From NCBI GenBank assembly GCA_900316045.1, contig ONBM01000001.1, positions 1 to 64,000 on the forward strand: a DNA stretch of 64,000 nt, read 5' to 3'. This DNA comes from an uncultured Bacteroidales bacterium. GTDB lineage: Bacteria > Bacteroidota > Bacteroidia > Bacteroidales > UBA932. The notes under the pieces are model-generated. The model was not told the origin of the DNA, made no database searches, and saw only the letters and a list, made by a program, of their open reading frames with translations. This document shows positions 24,505 to 35,618 of the stretch, one piece after another. The number at the start of each line of letters is the position of its first letter. Within the stretch, counting starts at the first letter, position 1. A program made the translations under genes and the position numbers.

Positions 24505-25437
24505 TTAATTCTTTTTAGAGACGTTTCCCTTGATAGAATCGAAGCCACGTCCGTAAACTCCTGTGACAGAAGATATGGACAAGAACGCATCGTTATCGAT
24601 AGCCTTGATGCTGCGCAGGATGAGATTCACGTCTGTCTTTCGAGTCACTACGGTAAGCACCTTTATGTTCTCTTTCGTGTACCAGCCTTCGCCGTCCAAG
24701 ACAGTCACGCCTCTGTGGAAATCCCGAGCAATCATGTCGGCAATATCGGCATAATGCCTGGAGAATATGAAAAGTTGTACGCTCTGCCTGGACCCAGACA
24801 GGTAAAGGTCCACCACAGTGCCATTTATCGTCACGAGAATGAGGCCGTAAATTACAGTGACGAATTTGGTGTCGAATTTCATAAGGCTCCCATCCGGCAT
24901 ACGAGAAGGCACGAGCAGTGAGGACAGGATGATGATGACATCCATCCACAAAATCATGCGGCCAGGCGATATATTCCTGTATTTGGCTACTATCAAAGCA
25001 ATTATGTCAGTTCCTCCTGAACTGCCTCCCTGAGAGATGGAAATCCCGATGCCGACGCCTGTCATGATGCCGCCTATTATGGCGCACATCAGCTTCCCGT
25101 TCGACAACGCAAAGTCTTGGATTATGGACTGCGGCACGATTACCTGGAATACATTCAGTCCTATTGATGCAAGGATAATGGCATAGATTGTCTTGGCTCC
25201 GAACATAGGGCCAATCACCAGGAATGATATCAAAAGGAGGAAGACATTAATTACCAGATAGCTGTAACCCATTTTTATGCCCGTGGCATACTGGATTATG
25301 GAGCTGACGCCGGTCACTCCGCCGCCGACCAGGTTGTTAGGCGTCAGGAATATCGTCCATCCAAGAGTATAGATGGCCATTCCGACGGCTATCAGGAAAT
25401 ATTCCTTAACGGACTTAGCTATTTTGCTTTTGCTCAT
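24505..25437 (-). CDS. YitT-family membrane protein (second copy)
   Basis: A 310-residue protein with five to six N-terminal membrane helices (YitT/DUF161, including LTPNNLVGGGVTGVSSII and QGGSSGGTDIIALIVAKY) and a C-terminal cytosolic DUF2179 domain (TVLDGEGWYTKENIKVLTVVT, then DAFLSISSVTGVYGRGFD). Function unknown; some relatives are suspected transporters or stress proteins. Its start overlaps the upstream paralogue by 23 nt. It ends the SPOR-M28-leuS-yitT-yitT series. Confidence 0.87.
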   Translation of the reverse strand: MSKSKIAKSVKEYFLIAVGMAIYTLGWTIFLTPNNLVGGGVTGVSSIIQYATGIKMGYSYLVINVFLLLISFLVIGPMFGAKTIYAIILASIGLNVFQVIVPQSIIQDFALSNGKLMCAIIGGIMTGVGIGISISQGGSSGGTDIIALIVAKYRNISPGRMILWMDVIIILSSLLVPSRMPDGSLMKFDTKFVTVIYGLILVTINGTVVDLYLSGSRQSVQLFIFSRHYADIADMIARDFHRGVTVLDGEGWYTKENIKVLTVVTRKTDVNLILRSIKAIDNDAFLSISSVTGVYGRGFDSIKGNVSKKN

Positions 25438-26365
25438 CGGCATTATTCTTCTTCTTTTTTAGATTTTTGATTGAAACCCCTGTCTTTATTTCATCGAAGC
25501 CCTCTCCATAAACAGTGCTTGCAGACGATACGGAGATGAAAGCCTTGGGATCTATGTTCTTTATCACTTTCGTGAGATTGTGGAGCTGATTTTTCCGAAC
25601 GAGAATCAACAGGACTTTCTTCTCGTTCTTTGTGAACCAGCCGACGGCATTCAAGGCAGTCACTCCCCTGTCCAGTTCTTTAATGATGTAGTCGGCAATC
25701 TGCTCGTATTTTTCCGAGAATACGAGCAATTGCCAAGTGGACTTTCTGCCTAAAGTCACCCAATCGACGAATACAGAGAATATTATCATGGCCACATAGC
25801 CATAAACCATGTCCTCCAGGGTTTTGCCTGGCACAAGCAGCACCGAGGCGATGATGAACACATCGCAGCAAAGGTAGACCGTGCCCAGCGACACTGGCCA
25901 GAACTTATTGATTATCAGAGCGACTATGTCTGTTCCTCCGGTACTGCCTCCATGATCCAGTACGAGCGATATCCCGTATGACTCGATGCAAGAGGCCACT
26001 ACGACCAAAAGCAGCTTGTTGTCAAAGAATACGTACCAGTTCTCCATCCCTGCGAATATATCTAGGAAAAATGTAGAAATGGCAATGACATATATCGTCT
26101 TGAATCCGAAAGCATTCCCCAAGATTAGGAAACCCATTACGAGCAATAAGATATTGATTGCGCCGAAAGATATGTAGACTGGGATCCCCGTAGCGAAATT
26201 TATCACCGTGGCTGCGCCAGTGACTCCTCCGCTCGCAATCTGGTTAGGGACGAACATGCATGACCACGAGAATGCGTAGAGCATGGTGCCAACTGTCAAG
26301 ATGAAGTAATCCCAGATGACAGACTTCACCTTAGCTGACTTTGTCAATGGCTTAGTTGCAGACAT
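25415..26365 (-). CDS. YitT-family membrane protein (first copy)
   Basis: A 316-residue paralogue of the next gene with the same layout: VPNQIASGGVTGAATVI, DHGGSTGGTDIVALIINKFW, then the DUF2179 domain (TALNAVGWFTKNEKKVLLIL, AFISVSSASTVYGEGFDEI). The two proteins align along their length but clearly differ, so the duplication is old. It ends with a lysine- and asparagine-rich tail. It lies 15 nt after leuS, suggesting cotranscription. Confidence 0.87.
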   Translation of the reverse strand: MSATKPLTKSAKVKSVIWDYFILTVGTMLYAFSWSCMFVPNQIASGGVTGAATVINFATGIPVYISFGAINILLLVMGFLILGNAFGFKTIYVIAISTFFLDIFAGMENWYVFFDNKLLLVVVASCIESYGISLVLDHGGSTGGTDIVALIINKFWPVSLGTVYLCCDVFIIASVLLVPGKTLEDMVYGYVAMIIFSVFVDWVTLGRKSTWQLLVFSEKYEQIADYIIKELDRGVTALNAVGWFTKNEKKVLLILVRKNQLHNLTKVIKNIDPKAFISVSSASTVYGEGFDEIKTGVSIKNLKKKKNNADEQKQNS

Positions 26366-26380
26366 AAATATTCAACGACT

Positions 26381-29146
26381 CTATTTTATGACGAAATTTA
26401 CGATTTTTCCTGGCACGACGATCACTTTCACTATTTGATGCCCGTTAGTATATTTTCCTGTCTGTTCCAGCCCCCTTATATGATCCTCAACGTCTTTAGG
26501 GTTCAGAGATTTAGGAAGATCCACCGTGAACCTCATCTTCCCGTTGAAAGAAACCGGGTAAGTGATGTCATCATCGGCGGCAAGGGACGGGATGAAGTCA
26601 GGGAAATGAGCGTATGTGATGGTCTCATTATGCCCCAGCATCTCCCAGAGTTCCTCAGCGATGTGAGGGCAGAAAGGAGATATCAGAATCGCGAGAGGCT
26701 CCAGAATCTCACGCTTATGGCATTTCATCGCCGTGAGGTCGTTCACCGTTATCATGAATGAGCTGACAGTCGTATTGAAAGAGAAAGTCTCTATGTCGCC
26801 TTCCTCCTTGCCAATTAGTTTATGCAGAGCCTTCAGTTCTTCTGCCGAGGCCTTCTCGTCAGTAACCGCAAAGTCGTCACCATTGAAGAAGAGTCTCCAG
26901 AACTTCTTCAGGAAACGGTTAACTCCATCTATTCCATTCGTATCCCAAGGCTTGGACTGCTCCACGGGACCGAGGAACATTTCATACAGCCTAAGCGTGT
27001 CAGCGCCATATGTCTCGCAGATGAGATCCGGATTTACGACGTTGTACATGCTCTTGCTCATCTTCTCTATTGCCCAGCCGCAGACATATTCGCCATTTTC
27101 CAGCACGAATTCAGCATCAGCGAACTCCGGACGCCATTTCTTGAATGCCTCCAGATCAAGCCTGTCATTGCGGACGATGTTCACGTCCACATGAATTTCA
27201 GTTGTCTCGTACTGGTCCTTGAGGCCATAGGACACGAATTTATTCGTTCCAACTATTCTGTAGACAAAGTTCGAGCGACCCTGAATCATGCCCTGGTTGA
27301 TGAGTTTCTTGAAAGGCTCATCCTCGCAGACATAGCCCAGGTCATAAAGGAACTTGTTCCAGAATCTTGAATATATCAGGTGCCCTGTCGCATGCTCGGT
27401 GCCGCCGATGTACAAGTCAACGTTGCGCCAATATTCGTCTTTATCCTTATCGACGAGGGCGTTGTCATCGTGCGGATCCATGTACCTCAGGTAATATGCG
27501 CTGGAGCCTGCGAATCCTGGCATAGTGGACGTCTCAAGAGGGCAACCCTCGTATATCCAGTCCTTTGCCCTGGCGAGAGGCGGCTCCCCGTTCTCAGTAG
27601 GCTTGAACTCAGTTATTTCCGGAAGAGTGAGCGGGAGCTTATCGAAAGGCATAGGCTTAGCCATGCCATCTTCATAATATATCGGGAACGGCTCTCCCCA
27701 ATACCTCTGACGGCTGAATATGGCATCTCGAATCCTGTAATTTACCTTTCTGTGGCCGAAACCATGCTTTTCGACATAATCGATAGCGGCAGGGATGGCA
27801 TCTTTTACCTCCATGCCATCCATGAAGCCGGAGTTCATCATGAGGCCTTCCTTGGCATCGAAACTTTCCGCACTGACGTCGCAACCCTCAATGAGAGGGA
27901 TTATTGGCAGATTGAATTTCTTGGCGAAAGCATAGTCTCGGCTGTCATGAGCCGGAACCGCCATGATCGCCCCAGTGCCGTAGCCCGCTAAGACATATTC
28001 AGAAATCCAGATAGGGACCCTCTTGCCATTCATGGGATTAACTCCGAATGAGCCACTGAATACGCCTGTGACAGATTTTGTCTCGGCAAGTCTTTCTCTC
28101 TCTGTCTTTTTCTTCACATATTCGAGATATTCGTCAACTGCGGGCCTCTGCTCTTGCGTCGTCAGGACTTCTACCAGATCGCTCTCTGGCGCCAGCACCA
28201 TGAAGGTTACGCCGAACATGGTATCTGCTCGAGTCGTGAAAATCGTGACATCATGTTCCTCGTCCCCGTTATAGCACTTGAACACGGCCTCGCAACCGTA
28301 GGATTTGCCTATCCAGTTGCGCTGCATTTCTTTTAGAGAATCGGTCCAGTCTATGCGGTCAAGGCCTTCAAGCAGTCTTTCTGCGTATGCACTGACCCTG
28401 AGCTGCCATTGCTTCATCTTTCTCTGCATCACTGGGAAACCTCCGCGGACGGAAAGGCCGTCCTTGACCTCGTCGTTAGCAAGCACTGTCCCAAGCTGAG
28501 GGCACCAGTTCACAGAGGTCTCGCCCTGATATGCTATCCTGTAATTCATCAGCATGTCAGCCTTCTCTTTATCCGAGAATGCGTTCCACTGCTCTGCGGT
28601 AAAAGGATCGTGCTCATTGCAAGCGGCATCGACCGCTGAACTTCCACCTTTTGAGAATGCTTCTTCGAGCACCTGGATCGGGCGAGCCTTCTGCAAGTTA
28701 TTATCGTACCAGCTGCCAAACATTTTTAAGAAGGCCCACTGCGTCCATTTGTAATATTTTGGATCGCATGTGCGTACTTCCCTGTCCCAGTCGTAGGAGA
28801 ACCCTATCTGGTCCAGCTGCTGACGGTAGCGGTTGATGTTATTCACAGTAGTGATTTCAGGGTGCTGGCCGGTCTGGATTGCATACTGCTCTGCCGGAAG
28901 CCCGAATGCATCGTAGCCCATAGGATGAAGCACATTGAAGCCTTTCAGCCTCTTGTAGCGAGAATAAATGTCACTGGCGATATATCCAAGCGGGTGTCCG
29001 ACATGCAGTCCGGCCCCCGAAGGGTAAGGAAACATGTCCAGCACGTAATATTTTGGCTTTGTTTTGTCTTCCGTGGTCTTGAATGTGCCCTCTTCGGCCC
29101 ATTTTTTCTGCCACTTTTTCTCAATCCTCCTGAAATCGTATTCCAT
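26381..29146 (-). CDS. leuS: leucyl-tRNA synthetase
   Basis: A 921-residue class I synthetase that charges tRNA-Leu. HIGH-type motif HVGHPLGY (near residue 48), the CP1 editing domain with [13 protein letters not shown], and KMSKS in [11 protein letters not shown] (near residue 675). An extra segment precedes KMSKS ([18 protein letters not shown]), common in Bacteroidales enzymes. It starts 13 nt after the M28/TonB gene stop and precedes two yitT genes. Confidence 0.97.
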
Positions 29147-29159
29147 ATATCAATAAAAT

Positions 29160-30515
29160 CTAATTCTCATGTTTTTTTATTCCGAAAGTGCCTTTTTTCT
29201 CCAGCCTGAACTCAACGTAGAGGGTCATCTCTGACTTAACTCTCTTCCCTCCAGACATTCCTGGCTTCCAGTCCGGAGATGCGCTGATGACCTTAACAGC
29301 TTCTGCATCCAGAAGTGGGTCTGCGCTTCTGACGACTTTAGCATCCTTCACCTTCCCATCTTCGTCTATTATGAAGCTGACTTGCACATTGCCTTGTATG
29401 CCTTGATTAACAGCCTCCTTCGGGTACTTCAAATAACTGTATACCCATTTCGTCAAAAAAAATCTTGGGTCGGAATGCCCGAAGAACGTCGGCTTCACGT
29501 CACAATCGTAGTAAGGAATAGCTCTGCCAGACCCCTTAGCCTCAGATGGCCTGAATGCCGGTTTAGGCCCATTGGCAAGCGAAACAGTGAAATTGTAGAC
29601 ATATTCCAGTTCCCTTTCCATCGTGTCATAATCTATTATGGACTGGGTGTCTCTCTCTGTATCGTGCTCTGGATATATTCCCGTCGTGAAATATACCGAA
29701 GGGATATCCTTGCCATAGAACGACCTGTGGTCTGATGGATAAGGTTCTTGACCTACAATCTGAGGGGTAATAGGCTGCAGCTTGCTCGCCTCGGCATTCA
29801 GCTGCTGATTCAGATCTGCATTAGATGCCGTGTAGGCGTAGAAGCCAAGACTGCCAGTCCCTACCATATCCAGATTTATCATTGCGTCAATGTTAGCGAC
29901 ATCGGAGAATGAACGATTCAAGAAATACCAAGATCCAGAGAATGTTTGGCAAGATGCGCCAAAACCTATGAATAGCACAGAACGACGGAGAAGCAACTTA
30001 TTTGTCTCCAGCATTTTAGCCAGCTCCAGCATCATAGCGAGACCGGAAGCATTTCCATTCGCCCCATAATAATTCTTCTCCACCTTTCTTCCGTTCACGG
30101 TCATGGAACCTATTCCAAGATTATCCATCCTGGCCCCAATGACTATGTAATTCTTAAATAGTTTAGGATCTGAGCCCTGCAGGAAAGCAACGACATTCCT
30201 AGAAGTGAGAGTGTCACCATTATCTTGGCGAATGCCAAATGCCTCGCCATCCTTGCCAGAGAGCACGTCAATGCCATATTCCTTTAGCACATCGGAAACA
30301 TATTCAGCTGTAGCTCTCTCTCCTTCCGATCCCGCAAGGCGCCCTTCCATGCTTGCAGCAGAAATCGTAGAAATATGCTCTCTGAGAGCGCTTATGGTTT
30401 CAGAGTCCTCTAATTCCGCATATCCACTCTTGAATTGAGCCTGAGCGGAAAAAGTAGCAGTCGCCATTAATATGGCAGCAACGATGCCATTCGTTAATAT
30501 TCCGTATTCTTTCAT
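29160..30515 (-). CDS. degenerate M28 peptidase fused to a TonB C-terminal domain
   Basis: A 451-residue exported protein with signal peptide (IVAAILMATATFSAQAQ). Residues about 50-330 follow the M28 zinc-peptidase pattern, but most catalytic residues are replaced: the GAHxD histidine is R129 (GARMDNLG), the bridging aspartate is N153 (GANGNASG) and the two glutamates are S188-C189 (GFGASCQTFSGS). D216 (INLDMVG) and H263 (YPSDHRSF) remain. Residues about 345-440 are a TonB C-terminal domain (YPKEAVNQGIQGNVQVSFII, DEDGKVKDAKVV, WKPGMSGGK). It is probably a binding or scaffold protein, not a peptidase. No membrane anchor other than the signal sequence is seen, so classical energy transduction is doubtful. 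Confidence 0.85.
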   Translation of the reverse strand: MKEYGILTNGIVAAILMATATFSAQAQFKSGYAELEDSETISALREHISTISAASMEGRLAGSEGERATAEYVSDVLKEYGIDVLSGKDGEAFGIRQDNGDTLTSRNVVAFLQGSDPKLFKNYIVIGARMDNLGIGSMTVNGRKVEKNYYGANGNASGLAMMLELAKMLETNKLLLRRSVLFIGFGASCQTFSGSWYFLNRSFSDVANIDAMINLDMVGTGSLGFYAYTASNADLNQQLNAEASKLQPITPQIVGQEPYPSDHRSFYGKDIPSVYFTTGIYPEHDTERDTQSIIDYDTMERELEYVYNFTVSLANGPKPAFRPSEAKGSGRAIPYYDCDVKPTFFGHSDPRFFLTKWVYSYLKYPKEAVNQGIQGNVQVSFIIDEDGKVKDAKVVRSADPLLDAEAVKVISASPDWKPGMSGGKRVKSEMTLYVEFRLEKKGTFGIKKHEN

Positions 30516-30519
30516 CTTG

Positions 30520-31050
30520 CTATTCAGTTAAAATCCAGACCTGCGGAGGGCAAAAAGCCTGCCGCTTCAGCTCTTTCAAGGATTGGTAGAGCTGAACTGC
30601 ATCATTCGTCTTGCACACGCCCACGACGTTGTAGCCGTTCTTCAAAGCAATCACCTCGGCATCATACCCTTTTTCCGAAAACGTCTGGCTACATCTCAGC
30701 GCATTATCCATGTTGCTGAAAGAACCGACGATGATGTAATACCTGCACGGCAGGTCGGCGACCGCAAGTCCTCCGAAATTAGATGTCGCCATCATCTTGT
30801 AGCCATTCATTTTCATGGTGTCCAAGGCAGCCACGGAGTCTGCTTCGTGTTTCCTCACGGCAGCGATTGAGTCACGTATAGCTTTCTGCCTGGCCTTTTC
30901 AGCCTCGGCCTTTCTAGCCGCAATCGCCTCGGCCTTAGCCTCTATTTCTCGAGAAGTAGGCCTGCCAGCGACCTTCCTGAAAAAGTCGCATCCGGTTGCC
31001 ATCAAGGCAGCCAACGCCAGAAGTAGAATAGCCTGAAGAATTCTTTGCAT
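30520..31050 (-). CDS. SPOR-domain lipoprotein
   Basis: A 176-residue lipoprotein: MQRILQAILLLALAALMATGC ends in a lipobox. A charged alanine-rich helical segment (residues 40-80) is followed by a C-terminal SPOR domain (YYIIVGSFSNMDNALRCSQTF, EVIALKNGYNVVGVCKTND), a fold that binds denuded septal peptidoglycan. The start at 31050 is chosen because the residues before it are not signal-like and the promoter lies at 31056-31063. The M28/TonB gene begins 4 nt after it. Confidence 0.83.
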   Translation of the reverse strand: MQRILQAILLLALAALMATGCDFFRKVAGRPTSREIEAKAEAIAARKAEAEKARQKAIRDSIAAVRKHEADSVAALDTMKMNGYKMMATSNFGGLAVADLPCRYYIIVGSFSNMDNALRCSQTFSEKGYDAEVIALKNGYNVVGVCKTNDAVQLYQSLKELKRQAFCPPQVWILTE

Positions 31051-31055
31051 AGATG

Positions 31056-31063
31056 CAAATTTA
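31056..31063 (-). promoter_or_regulatory. -7 box of the SPOR-leuS operon
   Basis: TAAATTTG on the minus strand, ending 5 nt before the ATG at 31050, giving a nearly leaderless transcript. Confidence 0.45.
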
Positions 31064-31103
31064 ATCATTTTTACGACCTTAGGAAATAGCCTGAAAAAGA
31101 TAT

Positions 31104-31136
31104 AGAAAAGGCTGGCGCAGGAGTCTGGCCAGCCTT
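31104..31136 (-). terminator. terminator of the porin operon
   Basis: On the minus strand AAGGCTGG (31136-31129) and CCAGCCTT (31115-31108) form a perfect 8-bp stem with a 13-nt loop, followed by TTCT. It lies 26 nt after the porin stop. Confidence 0.7.
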
Positions 31137-31161
31137 GTAGCATAATGAAAGCGGGATATTC

Positions 31162-32496
31162 CTAGAAAGTAAGTTTTGCCATTCCCAGCACGCGGTGATT
31201 CTCGACCCAGCGCTTGTTTTTATTGGCAAGGCCGTGATCATCGAGCTTGCTCAAGTCAAGGCCGTGATCATCGAGCTTGCTCAAGTCTCCGTACTCCACT
31301 TTCGTGTAGTCATATTCAATTGCAAACGTCAGCTTGCCGATGTTGTAGGCAAGAGTAGGAGTCACCCTGAACATCTGGTTCATGTTCTTGAATCCATTGG
31401 AAGCGTAGTAGATGCTGTCGGCATTGCTGTAGCCATCCGCATCGACCGGAAGCTTGTGCTGCGTCCCAAGAGCCTTGATGTAGCCGACCATGCACATGGC
31501 CTGCCATTTCTTTCCGTAGCTTGCAGAAACGAAGCTGGAAGAGTTGCGCAGCGGAGTGTACTTGTAGTCAAGCTCATCTGAAGTGTCGTACAGCGCATAT
31601 CCGCTCATCATGCGAAGATGGTCACCGCCATTCGCGAAAATTGACTTAGCATTAATCTTGAACAGTCCGTCAGCGTACTGCAGATAGACGAATGGATTGA
31701 ACATGTTTATCCTGTCATCTGCCTTAGTCCCCGCATAATGATTCTGCGTGTTCTCCGTAAGCTTGTGACGAGGGACCAGGCTGATGAATTCGGTTCCCAA
31801 TCTCGCAAGGATATTCTTTGATACGTATGAAACGCCTACGTATGTCTCAGGAACAAGGCTGTATTTTATATAGTCCTCTGATGCTCCCTGAGGTCCGGTA
31901 GGCCTGTACTGCATAGGGTAGAGAATGCCTGCAGTGAAGACTAGGTTCCCGACGTATGCGTCCATCATGATTTGAGGGCTCCTGTTGAATGCGTTGAAAG
32001 GAGTTCCTGACTCCAGGTTGATGGCGTATGGTAGGTCTGCAGCCATTGGATGCCAAGCCTGACCAATCTTAAGGCTGATTGAATTGCCGCTGCAATTCAC
32101 ATCCTCCCAGAGCAGATTCATATACGCCTGGCGAAGTCTCAAAGATGCCGTGCTTCCATTCATGAGATAGAAGTCCGTCTCGATTTTTCCAGACACCTTC
32201 ATGGATCCGAACTGATAGCCTTTAACATTGAGGCCTAGCCTGGAGGTAATCGCATAAAACCTGAAAGCAGGATTTGAATATATATCCTTTCCTTCGGCAT
32301 TATTGGTCTTGTCATAAGGCATGTAATAGAACAAATCTTCGGAACCCGCCTTGCTGTCCCTCGTGTCGAACGCAGCATAAGTGCGGAAGAATCCGTATGG
32401 CTGCAAGTGCGCAGTCAGATTATCAGTGCTCTGGGCAAAGGCAGAAGCCGATGCCATGCAGAGCGAAGCCATAACTATCGTTAAAAAATTTTTCAT
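31162..32496 (-). CDS. outer membrane beta-barrel porin
   Basis: A 444-residue protein with signal peptide MKNFLTIVMASLCMASASAFAQ and alternating beta-strand pattern to a final aromatic residue (VLGMAKLTF), the sorting signal of outer membrane barrels. Strands such as GKIETDFYLMNG, SLRLRQAYMNLLW and ISLKIGQAWHPM resemble DcaP-like and other porins. It lies 16 nt after a DASS anion transporter gene, so it may let dicarboxylates or similar anions through the outer membrane; that is inference. Near the C-terminus it carries a perfect tandem duplication (DLSKLDDHGL twice). Confidence 0.8.
   Translation of the reverse strand: MKNFLTIVMASLCMASASAFAQSTDNLTAHLQPYGFFRTYAAFDTRDSKAGSEDLFYYMPYDKTNNAEGKDIYSNPAFRFYAITSRLGLNVKGYQFGSMKVSGKIETDFYLMNGSTASLRLRQAYMNLLWEDVNCSGNSISLKIGQAWHPMAADLPYAINLESGTPFNAFNRSPQIMMDAYVGNLVFTAGILYPMQYRPTGPQGASEDYIKYSLVPETYVGVSYVSKNILARLGTEFISLVPRHKLTENTQNHYAGTKADDRINMFNPFVYLQYADGLFKINAKSIFANGGDHLRMMSGYALYDTSDELDYKYTPLRNSSSFVSASYGKKWQAMCMVGYIKALGTQHKLPVDADGYSNADSIYYASNGFKNMNQMFRVTPTLAYNIGKLTFAIEYDYTKVEYGDLSKLDDHGLDLSKLDDHGLANKNKRWVENHRVLGMAKLTF
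31228..31287. repeat. perfect 30-bp tandem duplication in the porin gene
   Basis: Two identical 30-bp copies (31228-31257 and 31258-31287) in frame, adding ten residues (DLSKLDDHGL) between late barrel strands, in what is probably a surface loop or turn. Perfect identity suggests a recent event or a length-variable site. Confidence 0.9.
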
Positions 32497-33978: not shown

Positions 33979-35577
33979 TTACTTCTCAAACTCAAACTTC
34001 AGATCAATCGGAATATTCTCAAGACGTATGTTGACAAGGTCTGCCTTGAAATCGTCTGAAAGGCTGCAATACTTATCCTCGAACTGGGATGCGAACTCGT
34101 AGTCGCCGGTAGCCTGCGTCTTGATTATGATTCCCGTAAGGTCGCTTATGAGCGCAAGGGTCTTATCGTAATCAATGGTGTATTTCCCGCTGTCACCCCT
34201 CTTGAATGCCCCATTCATATTCAGATAATTGAATATCATGACGTAGGCCCTTCCAAGCTGGGACACCTCTCCGAACCTCTGCGAGCGAACAAGATTGGCG
34301 AAGTAGGTGATGATGGCATCTTCCTTCGTGGTGAGGCCAGGAATCTTATAGTCATCCAACAGCTTGCAGAGCAGATAAAGACCAGCAGCGCTGGCCTTAG
34401 CGTCTTCCCAGGTCAGAGCCTTGTTGCCCAAGGCATCGCTGACGCTGCCTTTGCCGTTAATGGTTTCCTTAACCCCAAGCCCATGAGCGATCTCACGGAA
34501 TGACACGCACCAATAGAATGCCTCTTCGCTCAGGTGGGCCTGCTGATCGGAATTGAGGACGACCATGCCGACCTCATTCACCACCCTGTTGAATTTCTCC
34601 GACATGATGTTGCGCAGGAGGACAGACCTGGTCCCAAGTTGCTGTTGCGAATATGCATCAGTAGGAAGATTCAATGCCATGAGCTTGATGCCAGCATTAG
34701 CATGGCCAGCCATGTAAATGGCGTCGAATGTATATATTTCGGAATCGCTTCCAGGAACGAAAGTCTTGTACGCTTCATCGCAAGGCAGCATTTTCTGCAA
34801 GTCGTCAGCCATTCCGGTGAACTGGCTCAGCTGCACCGTGCGTTTTTCATCTTTCAGCAGCACGTATGCATCGTAGGAAGCCTTCAAGCCGAACAATTGG
34901 TCGTCGTTGATTTCGCTAGGGCCGATGATGAGATCCATCTTGCTGTCTTTCACGTCCAGCCAAGCTTTGTCCGCAGCAAGGTAATCATCCGTCTTAAGAG
35001 CCTCTATTTTTTTCAATAGATAATTCTTGACGCTGGCCTTTATGGTGATGTCGGCAGCAGCCTGAAGCTCGCTGGACATCTTTTCGATGTAATCTTTGAA
35101 AGCCACGTGATAAGGAACCGAAGCCAACGCTCCAGCGCTGTCGCGAACTATCATGGTGTAGGGACTTGTCTTGGACGAATCAGAGAAAGTCTCGAATTCT
35201 GCCTTCGTCATGTCAGCAGGGTAGAAAGCCGCACCCAGCGGCCTTTCGCCATAACCTTCCACGAACGCCTTGCCGGTAACCCTGTCCCAAGGCCCATAGT
35301 TGATCTTGGCAAATTCTTTGATGTCCGAATCCTGAATTCCATCCATCAATGCCTTATCGCCAAAGGTTTGTTTCCAATAAATGCTGTCAGCCTGATCAGC
35401 TGCGAATTTGTAAAGGCTAAGCACTTCTTTGCCATTGTCGGAAATGCCAGACAGGTCAGGAGTAGTGATTTTCACCAAGGCATACTCGTCAGACAATTTT
35501 CCTATCTCAGACTTCTTTTCAGTCTTGCAGGAAACGAAGAGCGTAATCAGAATGCACGCCAGAGCAATTTTTTTCAT
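33979..35577 (-). CDS. M49 (dipeptidyl-peptidase III)-like lipoprotein with altered active site
   Basis: A lipoprotein of about 532 residues: MKKIALACILITLFVSC, cleaved at cysteine, followed by KTEKK, an acidic/lysine tail of the kind that directs Bacteroidota lipoproteins to the surface. The C-terminal half follows the M49-related pattern (HGLGVKETINGKGSVSDAL), but the zinc motif HExxH reads REIAH (R363 to H367) and the second motif EExKAD reads EDAKAS (E393 to S398), so peptidase activity is doubtful. Residue numbers count from the ATG at 35583, which is an alternative start. First gene of an operon with the DASS transporter and porin, so it may bind or process their substrate. Confidence 0.75.
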   Translation of the reverse strand: MKKIALACILITLFVSCKTEKKSEIGKLSDEYALVKITTPDLSGISDNGKEVLSLYKFAADQADSIYWKQTFGDKALMDGIQDSDIKEFAKINYGPWDRVTGKAFVEGYGERPLGAAFYPADMTKAEFETFSDSSKTSPYTMIVRDSAGALASVPYHVAFKDYIEKMSSELQAAADITIKASVKNYLLKKIEALKTDDYLAADKAWLDVKDSKMDLIIGPSEINDDQLFGLKASYDAYVLLKDEKRTVQLSQFTGMADDLQKMLPCDEAYKTFVPGSDSEIYTFDAIYMAGHANAGIKLMALNLPTDAYSQQQLGTRSVLLRNIMSEKFNRVVNEVGMVVLNSDQQAHLSEEAFYWCVSFREIAHGLGVKETINGKGSVSDALGNKALTWEDAKASAAGLYLLCKLLDDYKIPGLTTKEDAIITYFANLVRSQRFGEVSQLGRAYVMIFNYLNMNGAFKRGDSGKYTIDYDKTLALISDLTGIIIKTQATGDYEFASQFEDKYCSLSDDFKADLVNIRLENIPIDLKFEFEK

Positions 35578-35618
35578 ATTCAAAATCTATTGTATATTTT
35601 TTGATTTCAAACAGCCTG

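Follow-up and report, generated by a model that had tools for sequence, protein, structure and literature searches.

Several described systems stand close to the protein analysed here. The M28 aminopeptidases of Aeromonas (1amp), Bacillus subtilis (YwaD/BSAP, 6hc7) and Aneurinibacillus (2ek8) have the same fold as its residues 38-316 (Z 28-31). An M28-type fold is also found in the bacterial glutaminyl cyclases of Porphyromonas gingivalis (7cjg, 6qql), Bacteroides thetaiotaomicron (7d1e) and Tannerella forsythia (6qro), which match it with Z about 28 (28.5 for P. gingivalis) and need an Asp-Glu-His zinc site and a catalytic Glu. The peptidase fold can also serve for binding without catalysis, as in the ectodomain of the transferrin receptor (TfR1, 7zqs; Z 28.8); the transferrin receptor and nicastrin are inactive M28 homologues, and it is mainly from animals that, to our knowledge, M28-fold non-enzymes such as these two are known. 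At its C-terminal end, the protein shares the TonB_C profile with the TonB energy transducer.

Here we describe a protein encoded by an uncultured Bacteroidales bacterium (GenBank assembly GCA_900316045.1) in the first 64,000 nucleotides of contig ONBM01000001.1, hereafter the window. It can be aligned with the M28 aminopeptidases through all metal-site loops, but differs from them in that its base and metal ligands are replaced and that it is fused to a TonB C-terminal domain. Unlike this bacterial protein, the transferrin receptor and nicastrin are eukaryotic and membrane-anchored, with other flanking domains and no TonB domain. Our literature searches found no paper on the M28-TonB fusion or its family, and the term M28 does not occur in the main text of a review of inactive metallopeptidases (PMC11266112).

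Domain architecture of the fusion protein

The gene and its parts lie in the window as follows:

29160..30515, minus strand: pseudo-M28/TonB_C fusion gene, 451 amino acids, stop codon included (ORF, Pfam and alignments)
30438..30515, minus strand: signal peptide, residues 1-26, with predicted signal peptidase I cleavage before Q27 (Bacteroidetes Q-rule)
29568..30404, minus strand: M28 aminopeptidase fold, residues 38-316 (Pfam core 107-308, AF2, structure match)
30129..30131, minus strand: R129 codon, zinc His in intact relatives (alignment)
30057..30059, minus strand: N153 codon, bridging Asp in intact relatives (alignment)
29949..29954, minus strand: S188-C189 codons, general-base Glu and metal-ligand Glu in intact relatives (alignment)
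29202..29435, minus strand: TonB C-terminal domain, residues 361-438 (Pfam TonB_C; recovered at these coordinates by whole-genome search)

The first-pass annotation of this DNA had proposed an M28 peptidase ending in a TonB-type domain, and the open reading frame, Pfam and the fold match agree on this architecture. Peptidase_M28 (PF04389) was found at residues 107-308 with E=1.5e-25, above the cut-off, and TonB_C (PF03544) at residues 361-438 with E=6e-20 (75.9 bits in the whole-genome search), and a phmmer search against solved structures matched the protein to zinc aminopeptidases and to TonB. Residues 38-316 were aligned with the B. subtilis aminopeptidase 6hc7 over 254 residues, with Z 30.9 and an rmsd of 2.4 Å (VIA-align). 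The AF2 model of the fusion protein, made with 47 relatives, had a mean pLDDT of 84.5 and a pTM of 0.64, a low value at which the model probably does not fix the relative placing of the M28 and TonB_C domains.

Loss of the M28 active site in the protein and its genus

Alignment with solved M28 aminopeptidases and with intact family members put R129 in the column of the first zinc His, N153 in that of the bridging Asp and S188/C189 in those of the Glu-Glu pair, two columns whose roles we take, by analogy with the Aeromonas aminopeptidase, to be general base and then metal ligand; D131, D216 and H263 are retained. The four replacements and the survival of D216 and H263, all read from the sequence at first pass, were thus confirmed. 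The M28 set of H, D, E, D and H metal ligands with its general-base Glu is therefore incomplete: in the window protein the base and two to three of the five metal ligands are gone (D216 and H263 remain), and some relatives have lost three to four. The Asp-Glu-His zinc site and catalytic Glu of the glutaminyl cyclases are missing as well, the window protein having N153, C189 and S188 in their place. With base and metal ligands replaced, and the loss common to the genus, the peptidase would be dead, as annotated, and annotating it as an M28 peptidase is probably a mistake throughout this genus of gut bacteria.

Same-genus orthologues are present in most of the relatives searched, and the same pattern was seen in two independent named records with 95-97% identity to the window protein. 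Since the site loss recurs across the genus, it reflects neither chance nor a sequencing error. From the 77 genus sequences, a redundant sample, 58 were non-redundant at <90% identity, and these 58 share R129 (55), N132 (54), N153 (56), G154 (54) and S188 (55) at positions occupied by H, H, D, D and E, respectively, in intact members. Genus members differ at position 189 (L, S, R, Q, C and others), and D216 and H263 are kept in 51 and 49 of the 58 sequences. The lost residues are thus conserved as lost genus-wide, together with the low dN/dS given below.

The former metal-site loops had a mean major-residue frequency of 0.82, compared to 0.709 for the whole M28 part, as scored with a mask of six loops picked from sequence rather than from coordinates, in which the fold's conserved glycines add to the score; the value of 0.82 was attained by 2 of 279 circular shifts of this mask, the observed shift counted in. 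The loops of the old active site rank among the best-conserved parts of the M28 domain. An alternative reading is that the site was rebuilt as an enzyme, with D131, D216 and H263 joining R129, N153 or S188 in a metal-free or single-metal reaction; D131 is kept in 175 of 177 family sequences (and in 105 of the 106 rows of the gene tree below), and the genus has fixed and conserved its new residues. We consider this very unlikely, as none of the general base, the bridging ligand and the second Glu is left, position 189 varies freely, and no new fixed acidic or His residue was found among the listed pocket columns of the genus sequences.

Four pairs within the genus gave dN/dS values of 0.028-0.103 for the fusion gene, compared to 0.049-0.117 in six intact pairs; for leuS, the same genus pairs gave 0.014-0.033. 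A further genus pair (L040/L043) gave w=0.060, and two more were saturated and yielded no value. Purifying selection is strong on both the M28 part and the TonB_C domain, and the protein thus combines, as a pseudopeptidase does, lost catalytic residues with conservation of that loss under selection.

Origin of the fusion and probable order of the losses

A search that used an alignment of 47 orthologues as its query (E<=1e-60) found matches to the gene across the family, in 233 of 299 genomes spread over 16 of 25 genera. No full-length fusion was found outside the family in 295 genomes of the order (E<=1e-40) or 395 of the phylum (E<=1e-45), where matches covered the M28 part alone, and the site was intact in 11 of the 11 M28-only matches checked in the phylum. 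On a leuS tree (a quick search without bootstrap), the fusion-bearing genera formed one clade (SH-aLRT 100), and two changes explain the presence of the gene, one gain and one loss within the genus. A single origin of the fusion, within one family of the Bacteroidales, seems to fit these data.

Genera g20, g26, g27, g29 and g34 contain intact members, and g32 has one. Because five sister genera with the same fusion hold intact members, the fusion is older than the loss. The first-pass annotation had named close relatives with an intact site as the observation that would speak against it; none is intact within the genus, but the five sister genera do contain such relatives, so that the outcome of this check was mixed.

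Seven sites (H129, D131, D153, E188, E189, D216 and H263) were scored in 177 family sequences, a redundant set in which named records may repeat other genomes: 26 kept all seven, 19 lacked E188 only, and 132 lacked at least one metal ligand (one, two, three, four and five ligands in 21, 16, 65, 29 and 1 sequences, respectively). Every sequence that retained E188 was fully intact (26/26), and among the 177 there was no case in which a metal ligand was lost and the base kept.

The gene tree, of 106 rows including 5 outgroup rows, was built after the seven site columns had been removed. Genera g34, g27, g29, g26 and g20 are early branches, and g33, which has lost the base alone (HDDSEDH over the seven sites), is sister of the window's genus. 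Within that genus, the one member that still has H129 (L022, with N153 and without the Glu pair) is sister of the rest, which adds H129R. By parsimony, the fewest changes were 9 for E188, 10 for H129, 10 for H263, 7 for D216, 5 for D153, 4 for E189 and 1 for D131, and irreversible-loss counts in the same order were 13, 12, 10, 7, 7, 4 and 1. Change counts carry no direction by themselves, and loss is the sensible direction because the tree is rooted on M28-only outgroups, whose sites are intact. On this tree, the catalytic base would have been lost at least nine times.

Arg or Lys at 129, 188, 189 or 216 was found in 101 of 111 sequences with at least two ligands lost versus 7 of 66 others, an association among sequences that are not independent and come largely from one genus (77/177). 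Beyond this genus, g32 and a single g31 member also have Arg at 129, and Lys occupies position 188 in g18, g22, g28 and some of g32. H129 was replaced by R (88) or N (21) and H263 by Y (40), N (8) or F (7); as these two histidines were replaced differently, mutation bias alone cannot explain R129, and the choice is site-specific.

Could the series simply record the slow decay of an unneeded gene, in which catalysis became dispensable and the site drifted with no other weighty role to fill? Across the family the sites were lost many times and in diverse ways, most variably in g32, and some reduced genomes have no copy of the gene, a truncated copy or one with an internal deletion. Still, we hold decay to be quite unlikely, as both domains match intact relatives in their low dN/dS, 233 of the 299 family genomes carry the gene with its place before leuS kept, and the dead pocket is more conserved than the remaining domain.

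Export and the TonB C-terminal domain

Alignment of the family showed Gln at mature position 1 in 166 of 177 members, and A, S or G directly before this Gln in 173 of 177; a strict AxA-Q pattern, present in only 36 of 177, was set aside as too narrow. Under the Q-rule, as described in PMC5837995, signal peptidase I exposes an N-terminal Gln, which is then cyclised. The family-wide Gln at +1 fits this rule, and the fusion protein is, in contrast to anchored TonB, most likely soluble in the periplasm without a lasting membrane anchor. The secretion proposed at first pass thus agrees with the prediction of a cleavable signal peptide followed by Gln.

The window's genome, 96% complete, encodes two TonB_C domains above the Pfam cut-off, one in the fusion protein and one in an anchored TonB, which by eye has an anchor helix and a Pro-rich stretch. 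Over their shared part the two are ~44% identical, and the YP, G-QG, DG-V, LD-EAV and SP-WKPG motifs of the cell's own TonB are, by eye, retained in the fusion protein. Where TonB has an uncleaved N-terminal membrane anchor, however, the fusion protein has a predicted signal peptide that would be cleaved off, and it lacks a Pro-rich spacer and would not be directly energised by ExbB-ExbD. A TonB domain that has no anchor cannot be energised, leaving passive contact only.

The same genome encodes 57 TonB-dependent receptor plug domains, and the TonB box of such receptors is described as pairing with strand 3 of the TonB domain (PMC11658791). In three genomes without the fusion gene or its TonB_C domain we counted 26 (G266), 20 (G310) and 21 (G197) plug domains, compared to 16-39 in 15 gene-retaining genomes, the window's excluded, so that a lower number in genomes without the gene was looked for and not found (3 versus 15 genomes). 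Since the counts do not differ between genomes with and without the gene, they lend no support to the earlier suggestion that the TonB fold docks to a barrel or a partner, and receptor gain or loss was dropped as a sign of TonB-box docking. The same counts weigh against the proposal that the protein is a soluble decoy, which would occupy the TonB boxes of receptors and so restrict the anchored TonB, with the M28 part as a stable carrier or regulator. The ~44% identity to anchored TonB, the kept motifs and the sharing of one anchored TonB by 57 plug domains would suit a decoy, but the plug-domain counts do not follow gene presence and the observed constraint on the M28 pocket loops would be needless, and we judge this proposal highly improbable.

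Genomic neighbourhood

The fusion gene is flanked by the following genes:

30520..31143, minus strand: SPOR-domain protein with lipoprotein-type N-terminus, directly upstream with a 4-base gap; conserved neighbour
26381..29146, minus strand: leuS, directly downstream; neighbour conserved across the family
25415..26365, minus strand: first of two YitT-type genes, downstream of leuS (synteny, order conserved)
24505..25443, minus strand: second YitT family membrane protein gene (Pfam and synteny, order conserved)

The order SPOR, fusion gene, leuS, YitT, YitT is found in nearly all loci of the genus, and leuS lies directly downstream in most family loci with enough flanking sequence. The SPOR match (PF05036) is marginal (E=2.5e-4, 21.7 bits against a cut-off of 21), and a long Ala/Lys/Glu-rich stretch lies ahead of the SPOR domain in this lipoprotein. 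A separate SPOR-type ORF lies directly upstream in 45 of 46 genus loci. In the 46th (L049), a 597-amino acid ORF in frame +2, from codon 1489, reads SPOR, pseudo-M28 and TonB_C in one chain; it lacks 92 bases of its nearest relative L045, by which the SPOR stop codon and the signal peptide are gone, and is 97.5% identical to L045 across the next 797 bases. This fusion comes from a single metagenome assembly, with no Ns. In other genera the SPOR-type gene lies further upstream, usually with one or two genes in between, gcvT in most cases.

In two same-genus genomes of 1.7 Mb, G266 (locus L278) and G310 (L279), there is a clean absence of the fusion gene, with the SPOR ORF stopping 25 or 5 bases ahead of leuS. 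As these genomes keep SPOR beside leuS without the fusion gene, the gene order indicates that the fusion protein is dispensable, at least in small-genome lineages, and that SPOR is independent of it. Other copies are partial: L144 (G197, 1.5 Mb) has no TonB domain, and L143 (G326) and L023 (G009) carry a deletion within the M28 part.

SPOR domains bind denuded glycan strands, and peptidoglycan amidases yield such strands together with freed stem peptides. Together with the SPOR lipoprotein, the fusion protein could therefore have a role at the septum or wall, reading both amidase products: the denuded glycan by SPOR, and the stem peptides, which start with L-Ala, by the pocket, with TonB_C perhaps in contact with the wall. 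The presence of a SPOR-type gene directly upstream throughout the 46 genus loci (one of them fused) and nearby in other genera speaks for such a role. We nonetheless regard it as unlikely, as genomes without the fusion gene keep SPOR next to leuS, one to two genes, mostly gcvT, intervene in other genera, the family has no known wall enzyme activity and the only natural fusion is that of one metagenome assembly.

Further upstream, the gene at 31162-32496 (minus strand) encodes a 444-amino acid protein with a signal peptide that looks barrel-like by eye and has no Pfam match at E<=0.1; it adjoins the SPOR gene in the two closest relatives only. We also weighed the outer-membrane protein, transporter and M49 genes upstream as functional partners and rejected them, since they lie beside the fusion gene only in the two nearest relatives.

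Proposed function

A dead site that is conserved, export and selection on both domains make a binding role for the old peptidase fold, as put forward at first pass, the natural reading of the sequences. The pocket was rebuilt and not left to rot, which points to a ligand, and because the ancestor would have read peptide N-termini like the M28 aminopeptidases, a peptide end is the first guess. We therefore propose, with a probability of roughly one half, that the protein is a pseudo-aminopeptidase, soluble in the periplasm, which binds peptide ends but does not cleave them and whose TonB domain keeps it at an envelope partner.

In this mechanism, the first loss in every lineage would be that of the catalytic base, giving a zinc-dependent trap: zinc and substrate binding would survive, while cleavage stops. 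Base-removing changes are also made deliberately for substrate trapping. Arg or Lys side chains may later have substituted for the charge of the metal, and the old active-site pocket of the window protein would hold a peptide end or a similar ligand. TonB_C would passively dock the protein to a TonB box or to some other envelope partner, the least certain step, so that the protein would bridge captured ligand and partner. The dock may contact a TonB box, the wall or, for example, the SPOR lipoprotein as partner; for the last, one natural fusion is in favour and two SPOR-only genomes are opposed.

A bolder version extends this to the whole family, which would have become envelope binding proteins through repeated, ordered disarming of one TonB-tethered aminopeptidase. 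Loss of the base would first give a zinc-dependent peptide trap, and a fixed Arg/Lys charge would then turn it into a metal-free receptor of peptide N-termini or of other ligands; a TonB domain that is not energised would present it to outer-membrane receptors or the wall. The unrelated M49 homologue described below would have been disarmed in the genus by the same His-to-Arg change at its zinc motif. We regard this version as unlikely.

One bacterial family thus holds, at one chromosomal place, intact forms, base-less forms that should still bind metal, mixed forms and metal-less forms, and each step from enzyme to binding protein could be examined with natural proteins. How the losses are ordered, and how Arg/Lys enters the site, would be general, testable claims on the origin of pseudoenzymes, and a TonB domain would here be given a use outside energy transduction.

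A neighbouring M49-type homologue

One more peptidase homologue lies upstream:

33979..35583, minus strand: M49-type (DPP III-like) peptidase homologue (8.8e-8), with a lipoprotein-like N-terminus by eye

In place of the zinc motif HEVAH it has REIAH, and its EE-x-KAD motif is altered too. Arg at the zinc motif (REIAH/REVA) was seen in the window, in its two nearest relatives (L033, L034) and in 29 of the 29 best same-genus loci (L303-L331), a sample biased towards the closest matches to a dead query. It looks, from these motifs, to be a second His-to-Arg pseudo-metallopeptidase in the same genus. The HE pair is kept in 13 of 13 other M49 loci (L290-L302), of which 12 belong to other families and one to this genus (G062).
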